Source: Candidatus Moraniibacteriota bacterium (lineage in GTDB: Bacteria; Patescibacteriota; Minisyncoccia; Moranbacterales; UBA1568). Taken from it: a stretch of DNA of 56,939 bases. Under the pieces are notes generated by a model. That model did no database searches, had not been told where the DNA came from, and was given only the letters and a program-made list of their open reading frames with translations. The position numbers and the translations under genes are program-made. This document shows positions 14,712 through 36,479 of this stretch, piece after piece; the stretch's first letter is position 1, and each line of letters opens with the position of its first letter. Location: the NCBI GenBank assembly GCA_018499985.2, contig JAHBAT020000007.1, positions 1 through 56,939 of the forward strand, read 5' to 3'.

Positions 14712-14785
14712 GGGTGATTAGCTCAGGTGGTTAGAGCGCAACACTGATAATGTTGAGGTCCCAGGTTCGAGTCCTGGATCACCCA
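14712..14785 (+). tRNA. tRNA-Ile (GAT)
   Basis: Acceptor GGGTGAT/ATCACCC, anticodon GAT in CAACA/TGTTG, T-arm CCAGG-TTCGAGT-CCTGG, discriminator A; no encoded CCA. Confidence 0.97.
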
Positions 14786-14806
14786 CAGTCCAGTCAGAAA
14801 TGTGAA

Positions 14807-14884
14807 TATAGCGGGGTAGAGCAGCTCAGCCGGAGGCTGACAAGCTGGTAGTTTACCCGCCTATGGCGGGCTCGTCTGGCTTAA
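14807..14884 (+). pseudogene. Decayed 5' half of tRNA-fMet with two hairpin insertions
   Basis: The 19 bases 14807-14825 are identical to 15133-15151, the start of the intact tRNA-fMet. CTGGTAG and CTCGTCTGGCT of the same tRNA follow in order. They are separated by two extra segments, each a small hairpin (CAGCC-GGA-GGCTG and CCCGCC-TAT-GGCGGG). The similarity stops in the anticodon loop. This is a 5' half copy left upstream of the GIY-YIG gene. Confidence 0.75.
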
Positions 14885-14889
14885 CAATT

Positions 14890-15174
14890 ATGGAACAAAA
14901 GTATTTCATTTATGTTCTTGTATTTGAAGGAAATGCTATTTATATTGGCATGACACATTCATTACAAAGAAGAATACGAGCACATAAACGAGGTTCTACA
15001 AGAAGCACAAAGGGAAAAGTGATTCAAAGAGTCTTGAAATTAGAAGAGTGTTCTGATAGTATACAAGCCCGAGTAAGAGAAAAATTTTGGAAGTCGGGGC
15101 AAGGAAGAAGATATATCAGACAGTTATTAAATTATAGCGGGGTAGAGCAGCCTGGTAGCTCGTCTGGCTCATAA
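14890..15174 (+). CDS. GIY-YIG endonuclease running into tRNA-fMet
   Basis: 94-residue single-domain GIY-YIG nuclease. KYFIYVLVFEGNAIYIGMT supplies the GIY and YIG strands, followed by SLQRRIRAHKRG, the Glu-containing REKFWKSGQGRRYI and a short end. ATG 14890 is chosen; an upstream ATG at 14863 lies in the half-tRNA copy. The last 12 or so residues (SGVEQPGSSSGS) and the TAA stop are encoded by the sense strand of tRNA-fMet, the stop lying in the anticodon loop. Small GIY-YIG genes are common in Patescibacteria; here the arrangement suggests a homing-type insertion at the tRNA. Confidence 0.82.
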   Translation: MEQKYFIYVLVFEGNAIYIGMTHSLQRRIRAHKRGSTRSTKGKVIQRVLKLEECSDSIQARVREKFWKSGQGRRYIRQLLNYSGVEQPGSSSGS

Positions 15175-15209
15175 CCAGAAGGTCGGTGGTTCGAATCCAC
15201 CCCCCGCAA
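15136..15209 (+). tRNA. Initiator tRNA-fMet (CAT)
   Basis: D-arm GAGCAG-CCTGGTAG-CTC and anticodon CAT match bacterial initiator tRNAs. Position 1 (A) and 72 (A) do not pair, the hallmark of initiators; pairs 2-7 are GCGGGG/CCCCGC. T-arm GGTGG-TTCGAAT-CCACC, discriminator A, no CCA. The first ~38 nt overlap the end of the GIY-YIG frame. Confidence 0.92.
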
Positions 15210-15278
15210 CAATCTTTTTTATATCAGTACGTGACAGATGCTGACTTGGCCTGTCGCAACCGAAATAGAAAGAGGAGT

Positions 15279-15352
15279 GGCAGGGTAGCTCAGATGGTTA
15301 GAGCGCAGCACTCATAACGCTGAGGTCGGCAGTTCGATCCTGCCCCCTGCTA
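15279..15352 (+). tRNA. tRNA-Met (CAT)
   Basis: Acceptor GGCAGGG/CCCTGCT, anticodon CAT, T-arm GGCAG-TTCGATC-CTGCC, discriminator A, no CCA. The last anticodon-stem pair is an A/C mismatch. A lysidine-modified tRNA-Ile (CAT) cannot be excluded. Confidence 0.9.
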
Positions 15353-15402
15353 CAAGGTAGTTTGAAGTAGTGTGGTCCGGTTTACCTGGGCCAAAAATAT
15401 AT

Positions 15403-15479
15403 GGACCGGTAGCTCAGCTGGTTAGAGCGCTCGCCTGTCACGCGAGAGGTCGCGGGTTCGAATCCCGTCCGGTCCGCCA
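15403..15479 (+). tRNA. tRNA-Asp (GTC) with encoded CCA
   Basis: Acceptor GGACCGG/CCGGTCC, anticodon GTC in CTCGC/GCGAG, T-arm CGGG-TTCGAAT-CCCG, discriminator G and encoded CCA at 15477-15479. It is the only tRNA in the window with encoded CCA. The 3' end is the left attachment core of the island, and the CCA appears to come from the element. Confidence 0.97.
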
Positions 15480-17151: not shown

Positions 17152-17950
17152 GCACACAACCTCTTCTCAGAAGATGTAGCGAAAGTCGCCCTTTCACGAG
17201 AACAATTGCCAAAAAACAATTGCTCTTCTTCTGAGAAATTAAGTTGTGTGCTCTAGTAGTATAGCGAATTTCTCGTATCTTTTCCATTGCCTTTTTTGTC
17301 TTTATTTTCCTGTCACCCCTCCGCTCATGTCGCTTCCACTCCCTTTGGGCTCTGCCCAAACCTGGCTTCAAGAGCCAGGCGAGCTTCGGGGTTCTATCGG
17401 TCAGGGCTCGCGAGTGCCTCTTCCTTTTTTTAGTCTCTACTCTCGCCCTGTCTTTCTTGTCCAGGCTCCCTTCACGGCTTTCTTTGGTACCAGAGCCAAG
17501 TCCCATACCACCTCGAGGAGGCACCCCTTTCCTCGGGTGGTATGAGACACCCCCCTTTGTCCAAGCATCGCATAAGTGCCACCGTGCTTAGGCGACATCC
17601 GCTGTGCTCCTTTCGCCTAATCAGCACTTATGCAACGCATGTCCTAAAGGGGGATGGGCTCTGGTGCTCCTTACGCCGTTTTGCGGTCGCCAGTCTTTCT
17701 TCCTAGTCTCCTATCAGTTGTCCGGGCTCTATATCATCTCTTCCTCGTTCGTAGTCTGTGCTTCGCCCGGGCAGCCATTCTCATTTCCCCTTATGGCACT
17801 CTGTGTGGCTCGCAGAGCCTCGCCACACCTCGTCGCCATATCTTTTCCTCAAGAGAGCTTCTATCGCTTCGCACGCTTCGATTTCTGATCTCTTTCGTTC
17901 TTGTCGACTTCGTCGTACGAAACGGATTTTCTCTTTCTCGTTTTTAATTT
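17152..17950 (-). ncRNA. Candidate large structured non-coding RNA
   Basis: About 800 bases without a convincing protein. It is pyrimidine-rich on the plus strand (purine-rich, GNRA/GAAA-like loops on minus) and more GC-rich than its surroundings. Strong inverted repeats: 17152-17160/17243-17251 with 17164-17174/17227-17237; 17344-17350/17354-17360; 17361-17367/17373-17379; 17504-17518/17531-17544; three nested stems 17551-17558/17646-17653, 17570-17579/17624-17633, 17588-17595/17613-17620; 17803-17809/17822-17828. AAGGAGCAC occurs twice on the minus strand. Size, density of stems and position beside an integrase and tRNAs recall GOLLD/ROOL-type phage RNAs, but family membership cannot be tested here. 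Confidence 0.5.
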
Positions 17951-34265: not shown

Positions 34266-34805
34266 TTACTTGATCACACAACTCTTAAGCATGGGCGATC
34301 CAATAGTGGCACTATTGCCTTCACCAATAAGAGTTACAGCCTGACCCTTTTTGAAATCTACAACTTTATCATGTTCACTGGGTTTCATATAACACATTGG
34401 TCCAGAGAAATCATATTGACCATCGGTAAGCCTTACGATAATTTCATTATCAAAGGTACCGTTATCAACACTAGCTACTTTTCCAGATAGTTCGATAAGC
34501 TTTCCTTTATACTTAACATCAGCTGAGACTTCATTCTCCTTGTAATCTTTTGCAAGCACAGCACTTGTTACGGTTACTTCAGGAGCTTTGGGTTGTTCTG
34601 GGTCAGGGGCTTTTTCTGCCACCTTCTCTTCTTTTTGTTCGGAAGGAGTTTCCTTTGAAGGGGAAGCTGATTTATTATCTCCATTACTTCCAATGGCTCC
34701 AAAGATTATAAAAATACCGATAAGAATAACCCACCATCTCTTATACCAAGCTTTCTTTTGAGGAGTGTTTTGAGTCTCTCCTGTAGACTGAGGATTCTGA
34801 TCCAT
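34266..34805 (-). CDS. Membrane-anchored tRNA_anti-like (OB-fold) protein
   Basis: 179 residues. A short cytoplasmic start (MDQNPQSTG), one membrane helix (RWWVILIGIFIIFGAIG), a Lys/Glu/Pro linker, and a C-terminal domain with AKDYKENEVSADVKYKGKLIELSGKV, IVRLTDGQ, and DFKKGQAVTLIGEG, matching the tRNA_anti-like family (a small OB-fold of unknown function). The 5' untranslated region is about 208 nt, with its own promoter and strong alternative pairings, so the gene is probably controlled at RNA level. It is convergent with the copper operon. Confidence 0.82.
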   Translation of the reverse strand: MDQNPQSTGETQNTPQKKAWYKRWWVILIGIFIIFGAIGSNGDNKSASPSKETPSEQKEEKVAEKAPDPEQPKAPEVTVTSAVLAKDYKENEVSADVKYKGKLIELSGKVASVDNGTFDNEIIVRLTDGQYDFSGPMCYMKPSEHDKVVDFKKGQAVTLIGEGNSATIGSPMLKSCVIK

Positions 34806-35013
34806 ATAATTGTTGCTAAGGATTATTTAATTATGTATCAAATCTAGATTTTTAAGGTACACAAAGGGCCCCACAATCCGGCGGTAACCTTTCGATCACC
34901 CAGTAGCTCTTTCGAGTACTGACCTTAGCAACAAGTACCGGCTGTGAGGCCGTTTCTGTTGCTAAGGATTTATTGCGCCATGCTCACATTTCTATGAGTT
35001 TAGGCTGGATTGT
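34806..35013 (-). promoter_or_regulatory. Switch-like structured 5' leader (riboswitch candidate)
   Basis: Leader between the promoter and the ATG at 34805. On the minus strand CCTTAGCAAC (34967-34958), GTTGCTAAGG (34932-34923) and CCTTAGCAAC again (34821-34812) occur in that order. The central copy can pair perfectly with either side, and the last copy ends 6 nt before the start codon. Further helices: CAGTACTC-GAAA-GAGCTACTG, GGTGA/TTACC, GGC-CTCACA-GCC, CTCA/TGAG, and long-range CAATCC/GGATTG that closes the domain. This is the architecture of an RNA switch controlling translation; no known class is recognised. Confidence 0.65.
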
Positions 35014-35019
35014 ACCCCC

Positions 35020-35048
35020 AGTATATCTTTTTAAAGTACTTTTATCAA
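35020..35048 (-). promoter_or_regulatory. Promoter of the tRNA_anti-like gene
   Basis: Minus strand TTGATA, 17-nt spacer, TATACT; transcription would begin near 35013. Confidence 0.8.
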
Positions 35049-35073: not shown

Positions 35074-36393
35074 TCATCTTTTTAGGGTTATTTGCTTATT
35101 GGCTAGATATATTCTGCTTTTCAAACATCCAAGAATTTCTCTTTTTTCTTCATTTGAGCCTTCTTTGAGTACATACTTCGCATATCCTCGAATATCAACA
35201 CCTTTTGCATCCACCTTATCTTTTGTCCCTAGAAAGAATTTCTCCATTTTAGAGAATCTTTCTATATCCTCTGAAATTTTTGATTTTAGTTCTATTTCAT
35301 TTAGATTAATCTTATCTAAAAGTTCTTCGAATTGTCTGAGAATCTCCTTTTCTTCGGTATAACCACACTTACACTGTTTATCTCTAGCTTTAGTACAACC
35401 ATAATAAATATATCTTTGAACGGAGCCATTTTTAAGTTTCTTAAATTTCTCATCAGCACATATACCTGACTCACAGAGTCCGCAGGTCATCATTTTGGTA
35501 AAAGCGAATTCTTTACCTTCAACTCGGAGTATCTGGCTTTTTACTTGTCTTTGAACCTGATCAAAAAGTTCTTTGGTAATGATTGGTTCATGCTTACCTG
35601 TATACCAATTACCAGAGTTCTTTGGATATTCAAATACACCGTAATAGAAAGTGCTTTCTAGGATTCTATAGATATTTCCTAAGCTTAGATGCTTTTTGCC
35701 ATTCGCAGTTCTAAAATTAAGTTCAAAGGTAAGCCAGTTATGTAGCTTTCTGCCACTCCATTGTTCATAGGCGACTTTTTCAAACATCTTTTTAATGACA
35801 GGGGCTCTTTCTGGATCAATAAGAGTTTCACATTTTCGATCCATCCTTTTTTCCTTCATGTAACCAGTGGGGGCTGGGTTAGGCCAGAGACCCATTTCTA
35901 CTCTAGTCCGAAGTCCTCGTTTAACATTAATACTCTTATTGTCATTTTCAAGTTTGGCCTGACTACAGAGAATCATAAGAAGAAACTTCTCATTAGGGGA
36001 GTTTTTGAATATCTGTCCGTAAGTACGTATCTCCATTAAGTGTTGCTGATCCATCAAATCTACGACACTTCCTAAATCTCCTGCATTACGAGAGAGGCGG
36101 TCAGGAGCCCAGGTGAGAATGCCGTTAAATCTGCCCCTTCTGATATCTTCTAGTATTTCTTTGTAGACTGGACGCTGACCTGACTCCTTAGCACTATGAG
36201 ACTCCCTTCTGATCTCAACTATTTCAAGGTCATCTCGTTCAGCTTGCTGAAGCATCTCTTTGATTTGAGAATCAATAGAAAGGACTTGTCGCTCTTCAGA
36301 TTCGGTTGATTTTCGGGCGTAGAGGACGTACCTGATCTTTTGGATAGGTTGGACTATCTCGTCACCAATTCGGGCTGTTGTGTGCGTTTCCAT
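35074..36393 (-). CDS. Second large serine recombinase
   Basis: 439 residues from ATG 36393 (a TTG at 36417 is possible). Resolvase domain RYVLYARKSTESEERQVLSI with catalytic Ser in RKSTE and DRLSRNAGDLG; recombinase domain (GLWPNPAPTGYMKEKRM, GRKLHNWLTFEL, STFYYGVFEY); zinc ribbon CGLCESGICADE...YYGCTKARDKQCKCG; shorter C-terminal coiled coil than the recombinase at the left end. Its stop is a normal one, not in a tRNA. It stands between the switch-leader gene and the packaging genes, and may be the integrase of a nested element or act as an accessory recombinase. Confidence 0.92.
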   Translation of the reverse strand: METHTTARIGDEIVQPIQKIRYVLYARKSTESEERQVLSIDSQIKEMLQQAERDDLEIVEIRRESHSAKESGQRPVYKEILEDIRRGRFNGILTWAPDRLSRNAGDLGSVVDLMDQQHLMEIRTYGQIFKNSPNEKFLLMILCSQAKLENDNKSINVKRGLRTRVEMGLWPNPAPTGYMKEKRMDRKCETLIDPERAPVIKKMFEKVAYEQWSGRKLHNWLTFELNFRTANGKKHLSLGNIYRILESTFYYGVFEYPKNSGNWYTGKHEPIITKELFDQVQRQVKSQILRVEGKEFAFTKMMTCGLCESGICADEKFKKLKNGSVQRYIYYGCTKARDKQCKCGYTEEKEILRQFEELLDKINLNEIELKSKISEDIERFSKMEKFFLGTKDKVDAKGVDIRGYAKYVLKEGSNEEKREILGCLKSRIYLANKQITLKR

Positions 36394-36479
36394 GTATCTA
36401 TTGATGACGCACTTCAATAGATTTGCTAAGTCTATGCAAAAACAGTGATTTATCGCATAATAGCACTTTGAAAAAAAGG

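Follow-up and report, generated by a model that had tools for sequence, protein, structure and literature searches.

The stretch of DNA analysed here, hereafter the window, comprises 56,939 nt of a Candidatus Moraniibacteriota contig. The feature under study lies entirely on the minus strand, where a promoter is followed by a leader of ~210 nt that ends at the ATG (position 34805) of a gene for a 179-aa protein. In the direction of transcription, the locus is organized as follows:

35074..36417, minus strand: large serine recombinase, just upstream of LOOT and part of a mobile element (PF00239 and PF07508; phrog_95 integrase, E 5.7e-58)
35048-35020, minus strand: promoter TTGATA-N17-TATACT, read directly from the sequence
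35007..35015, minus strand: putative transcript 5' end GUACAAUCC with the conserved ACAA motif, placed by motif frequency and by position relative to the -10 box
about 35013 to 34806, minus strand: leader
35006-34883, minus strand: LOOT RNA (RF03000), 70.5 bits against a gathering score of 46.4, full length (1-121)
34967-34957, minus strand: A1, CCTTAGCAACA, the 5' arm of hairpin 2
34942..34951, minus strand: apical 5' strand and loop of hairpin 2 (GGCCUCACAG), the partner of T
34933-34923, minus strand: B, TGTTGCTAAGG, the 3' arm of hairpin 2, able to pair with A1 or A2
34901..34921, minus strand: hairpin 3, from the Rfam alignment and covariation
34883..34900, minus strand: hairpin 4, from the Rfam alignment and covariation
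34867..34876, minus strand: T (UUGUGGGGCC), the 3' strand of a long-range pseudoknot (10 bp in the window), outside the Rfam match
34859..34865, minus strand: U-rich stretch UUUGUGU directly after T, terminator-like
34821-34811, minus strand: A2, CCTTAGCAACA, a second copy of the A1 arm, ending 5 nt before the ATG
34266..34805, minus strand: the presumably controlled gene, encoding a 179-aa tRNA_anti-like (OB-type) protein, superinfection-exclusion (Sie)-like (PF12869, E 1.5e-17)

The original prediction, made from the letters of the window, had proposed a good promoter in front of a folded leader at this ATG, and both parts were borne out: the minus-strand leader folds at -78.7 kcal/mol (z -5.6, with 0 of 200 shuffles as good), against a weaker fold for the plus strand (z -2.2). 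It had likewise described one segment with two identical possible partners, and this is exactly what lies there. The B segment GTTGCTAAGG is the reverse complement of an 11-mer common to A1, in the leader, and A2, near the ATG, the distance from A2 to the ATG being 5 nt for this 11-mer and 6 nt for the 10-mer first reported. Within its own 892-kb genome the 11-mer occurs only as A1, A2 and, inverted, as B, and a reversed control pattern gave 0 matches. The closing helix of the same proposal is present in the minimum-energy fold of the window; since it overlaps a better-supported pairing and no such match was seen in the sequence of the nearest relative (L013), it is not counted here as conserved. 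The gene product had been taken for a membrane OB-fold protein of unknown function. Its function can now be narrowed, as the protein matches the Sie-like phage families phrog_8545 (E 5.9e-30) and phrog_4980 (E 1.1e-7) and is, by this similarity, a putative superinfection-exclusion-type protein.

An Rfam scan of the window returned, above the gathering scores, only LOOT and tRNAs, and the proposed search for known riboswitch classes thus yielded no known aptamer. The leader belongs to LOOT, an orphan family of Rfam, and matches no known riboswitch class. A1 and B correspond to the two arms of hairpin 2 in the Rfam model, and the extended LOOT features described below (a promoter with an ACAA 5' end, the pseudoknot strand T and the U-run) are all present in the window. 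In the literature searched, to which the original description did not belong, LOOT is named only as a metagenomic family or as an example of covariation, with no function.

About 200 LOOTs were compared, all or nearly all of them from Patescibacteria. LOOT is present in 102 of 383 genomes of the window's class and in 83 of 379 of the phylum, against 0 of 14 control genomes. A pattern scan of named genomes produced LOOT-like matches almost only in Patescibacteria, and the pattern matches in other phyla failed the structure test, except on short contigs in two MAGs. These matches (L305 and L311) lie on contigs of 3.5-3.7 kb in MAGs labelled Gastranaerophilales and Blastocatellia, and represent either mis-binned contigs or transfer. 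For viral contigs a loose DNA pattern was of low specificity and gave mostly chance matches, and a tighter one was used instead; the scan of the phage collection revealed no convincing match. Several LOOTs may reside in one genome and carry different arms, as many as seven in G317, and tandem copies lie close together at positions 17612 and 17988 of G543:C3. Identical hairpin-2 arms (e.g. ACCCGCTAGAG and CCGTCCAAAG) recur across genomes with different genes; because arm sequences recur between distant elements, the loci are not all independent.

Rfam assigns LOOT to the type sRNA, but its context here is, as judged from flanking sequence, that of a leader. A same-strand ATG ORF follows 103 of 107 LOOTs, at a median of 57 nt past the Rfam end, and 39 of the 40 loci in a hold-out set. 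In four loci (L214, L216, L218 and L262) the U-run and the ORF are separated by additional shared sequence, TTTGATGCCGGAGTGGATAACCAGATTTG...CCGAAGGTAA, which differs slightly from one locus to another. Upstream, an ACAA-type motif was found within 40 nt of 90 of 107 LOOTs, compared with about 27% of random positions, and in 37 loci a TATAAT box precedes an ACAAYU 5' end by 6-7 nt. In a promoter test anchored on the ACAA motif, a 5/6 match to the box was detected upstream of 65 of 93 LOOTs, where 34 were expected. LOOT transcription seems to start at ACAAYU, 6-7 nt past a TATAAT box.

The comparison also uncovered a pseudoknot of 12 bp, absent from the Rfam match, in which T, a segment of 9-16 nt just past the Rfam end, pairs with the loop and the apical 5' strand of hairpin 2. 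The loop:T pairing scored at least 20 in 99 of 106 loci, against 12.5 expected when loops were swapped between loci. In an assumption-free helix search of a 56-sequence alignment the pseudoknot helix ranked second. It is 95.7% paired, 11 of its 12 pairs show two-sided changes, and 0 of 500 shuffles matched the covariation of the whole structure or of the 8-bp pseudoknot core alone. A1:B, hairpin 3 and hairpin 4 also covary, and loops of the GNRA type are present; the local apical stem of hairpin 2, one strand of which is shared with the pseudoknot, is weaker (75% paired). The 8 nt after T contain a mean of 6.0 U (106 loci), the U-run of the window being short and weaker than this family average. 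As regards intrinsic termination, the stem preceding the U-run is the long-range pseudoknot, and a local hairpin around T is a partial feature, seen in 16 of 106 loci against 5.4 expected.

The start-codon copy A2 was sought by scoring the B arm of each locus against its own downstream region, in comparison with the arms of other loci (score of at least 22). It was found in 25 of 106 loci of a first set (0.96 expected), in 21 of 65 loci of a second set (1.1 expected), some records of which are probably of the same species as in the first, and in 7 of the 40 hold-out loci, all from outside the window's class (0.5 expected). Of 48 A2 loci that are not identical to one another, 44 had a start codon close to A2, in one case a TTG that may be mis-assigned, and in 41 of these 44 it begins between 5 nt before and 5 nt after the end of A2. 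Although the arms vary from locus to locus, every A2 fits the arm of its own leader. Homologous genes preceded by different arms, each with its own A2, include those whose products begin MYKRIPV (three arms), MPxKLQLQ (four), MNNENTE (two), MEKPNF (two) and MAIIIS (two). Such matched pairs in front of homologous genes are, at the level of sequence, a co-variation of leader and start site for which chance or simple inheritance would be insufficient. The nearest homologue of the window gene (G014, 60% identical) also has the A1/B/A2 arrangement.

The homologue comparison suggested for the two pairings therefore came out in favour of a cis-acting leader with mutually exclusive helices, with compensatory conservation of A1:B, which covaries, and of B:A2, which is matched in about a quarter of the loci. 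Of the predicted riboswitch or regulatory leader, the cis position and the recurring, co-varying exclusive pairings of B are retained, and the membership in a known riboswitch class is not, LOOT being the only assignment. Leaders lacking the alternative pairing, which had been named as evidence against the design, make up about 75% of LOOTs; the start-codon layer is thus optional and not the core of the family.

Folding energies place the two states close together. In 22 A2 loci the B:A2 fold and the native fold differed by 0 to 6.7 kcal/mol; with A1 masked, A2 was 91-100% paired in 22 of 22. In the window the native fold is favoured by 4.2 kcal/mol, and the folding model, which does not include the pseudoknot, gives probabilities of 0.98 for A1:B and 0.00 for B:A2, so that a strong trigger would be needed; as the model ignores the pseudoknot, these energies show only that the two states are close.

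From the elements established by sequence comparison, namely family membership, the position as a leader, the pseudoknot, the matched A2 copies and the mobile-element setting, we propose the following mechanism. Transcription would start at the ACAA motif, and hairpins 1-4 would form in the RNA. Pairing of the hairpin-2 loop with T, which lies just past hairpin 4, could then produce a pseudoknot immediately ahead of the U-rich stretch, and these two elements together may terminate transcription as a first control point. RNA that reads through would reach the gene, with A2 at its start region. With B paired to A1 the start codon would be free and the gene on; with B paired to A2 it would lie in or beside an 11-bp helix, blocking translation, and the gene would be off. 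Some signal, be it a protein, a phage-related factor or a small ligand, would tip the balance between A1 and A2; the direction of the A2 effect and its trigger are what we infer from this arrangement. That LOOT acts here in cis as an on/off leader, able to bury the start codon of a cargo gene of the superinfection-exclusion type within a serine-recombinase element, is a reading to which we assign a probability of roughly two in three.

The alternative that keeps most weight, although we regard it as unlikely, is a stand-alone sRNA that ends at the U-run and for which A2 would be a target in the neighbouring mRNA, paired between molecules. The Rfam type, the promoter of its own and the U-run after the pseudoknot in nearly all loci would suit such an RNA. 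However, the ORF starts only about 57 nt on, which leaves little room for a separate promoter, and in the completed sRNA B would be tied up in hairpin 2. In three genomes, arms that lack an A2 in cis were not matched exactly at any other place, and a search for trans targets with arm 11-12-mers in four genomes found no match outside LOOT and its leader.

A reversal of the sign of the switch, with B:A2 aiding translation, for instance by exposing the start codon, would account for the fixed position of A2, which precedes the AUG by 0-5 nt, roughly as a ribosome-binding site does, but we consider it improbable: a helix that touches the AUG normally blocks initiation, and LOOT genes without A2 are common. 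Even less probable is that A2 is a functionless remnant of a partial LOOT duplication. At one locus, L034 (G059:C80), the start-codon copy does reach past the arm over a hairpin-1-like segment and spacer, resembling a partial duplication of the 5' half of LOOT; against this, the A2 copies are short and perfect, adjoin the start codon and, where homologous genes have different arms, each correspond to the arm of their own leader.

The setting of the locus brings in two further alternatives. Between 36480 and 43842 the window encodes large and small terminase subunits, a ParB-like DNA methyltransferase, an HNH nuclease and HTH and metalloprotease-type repressor genes, which together with the recombinase mark this as one end of a phage-related mobile element. 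Among the proteins scanned from the element none matched capsid or tail, so it may be a remnant or a satellite. A search for its empty site turned up no useful relative, and at the ends tried no shared repeat exceeded 9 nt. A second large serine recombinase (PF07508; 16233-16484, minus strand) adjoins the tRNA cluster at 14712-15476 and possibly marks another mobile element near tRNA genes. For 53 of 107 LOOTs a large serine recombinase is encoded no more than 4 kb away, where about 1 was expected by simple arithmetic from a background of 103 matches in 93 genomes. This proximity, along with the inverted and direct repeats, could point to LOOT as an attachment or inversion site of the neighbouring recombinase, an idea we find hardly tenable: the distance and orientation between the two vary widely, a geometry by which we ruled out a recombination site; the helices show the covariation of an RNA, GNRA-type loops and an upstream promoter are present, and a gene almost always follows on the same strand. 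As to the metal-responsive riboswitch suggested by the adjacent copper operon, this adjacency is seen in the window only, the operon is convergent, relatives that lack LOOT also have copper-gene homologues, and LOOT genes elsewhere are cargo or defence genes unrelated to metals, a genomic context that leaves the idea with practically no weight and on which it was ruled out.

The genes behind LOOTs are diverse and include DNA methyltransferases (6 of 97), DUF2726, DUF4352 and zinc-ribbon proteins, a type I restriction N-terminus, a superinfection immunity protein and Sie-like families. What the comparison adds for LOOT is its place, as the leader of mobile-element cargo and defence genes, its fuller structure with pseudoknot and U-run, and a candidate mechanism in which a start-codon copy tracks a hairpin arm. 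In this role LOOT would amount to a broad layer of RNA control over phage defence in bacteria whose gene regulation has barely been studied. More tentatively, and with the odds against so broad a claim, LOOT may be a widespread self-addressed switch of Patescibacteria mobile elements, in which a variable hairpin-2 code and its matching start-codon copy would keep co-resident elements from cross-reacting, and a common signal, for example infection, would release the anti-phage genes.

The locus can be described as an orphan RNA, known before, in which new parts and a well-supported alternative pairing have been recognised. The window is a full-length match to LOOT, a metagenomic candidate structured RNA, and has the same hairpins, whereas the Rfam match ends before T, the U-run and A2. 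The controlled gene, through phrog_8545 and phrog_4980, recalls the superinfection-exclusion morons of phages, and RNA-controlled Sie genes were not found in our literature search. T-box and other terminator-antiterminator leaders resemble LOOT in that their pairings are mutually exclusive and a U-run separates these from the gene; unlike the T-box, LOOT has no recognised tRNA-binding features, the window contains no Rfam T-box match, and what precedes the U-run is a pseudoknot stem formed with a loop that lies about 70 nt upstream. What translational riboswitches and autogenous leaders share with the window is one strand engaged in two exclusive helices, one of them over the start region, at near-balanced energies. 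In contrast to translational riboswitches, the leader described here has no known aptamer, and its shared strand is variable, tracks a copy at the start site and is found on the mobile cargo of Patescibacteria.
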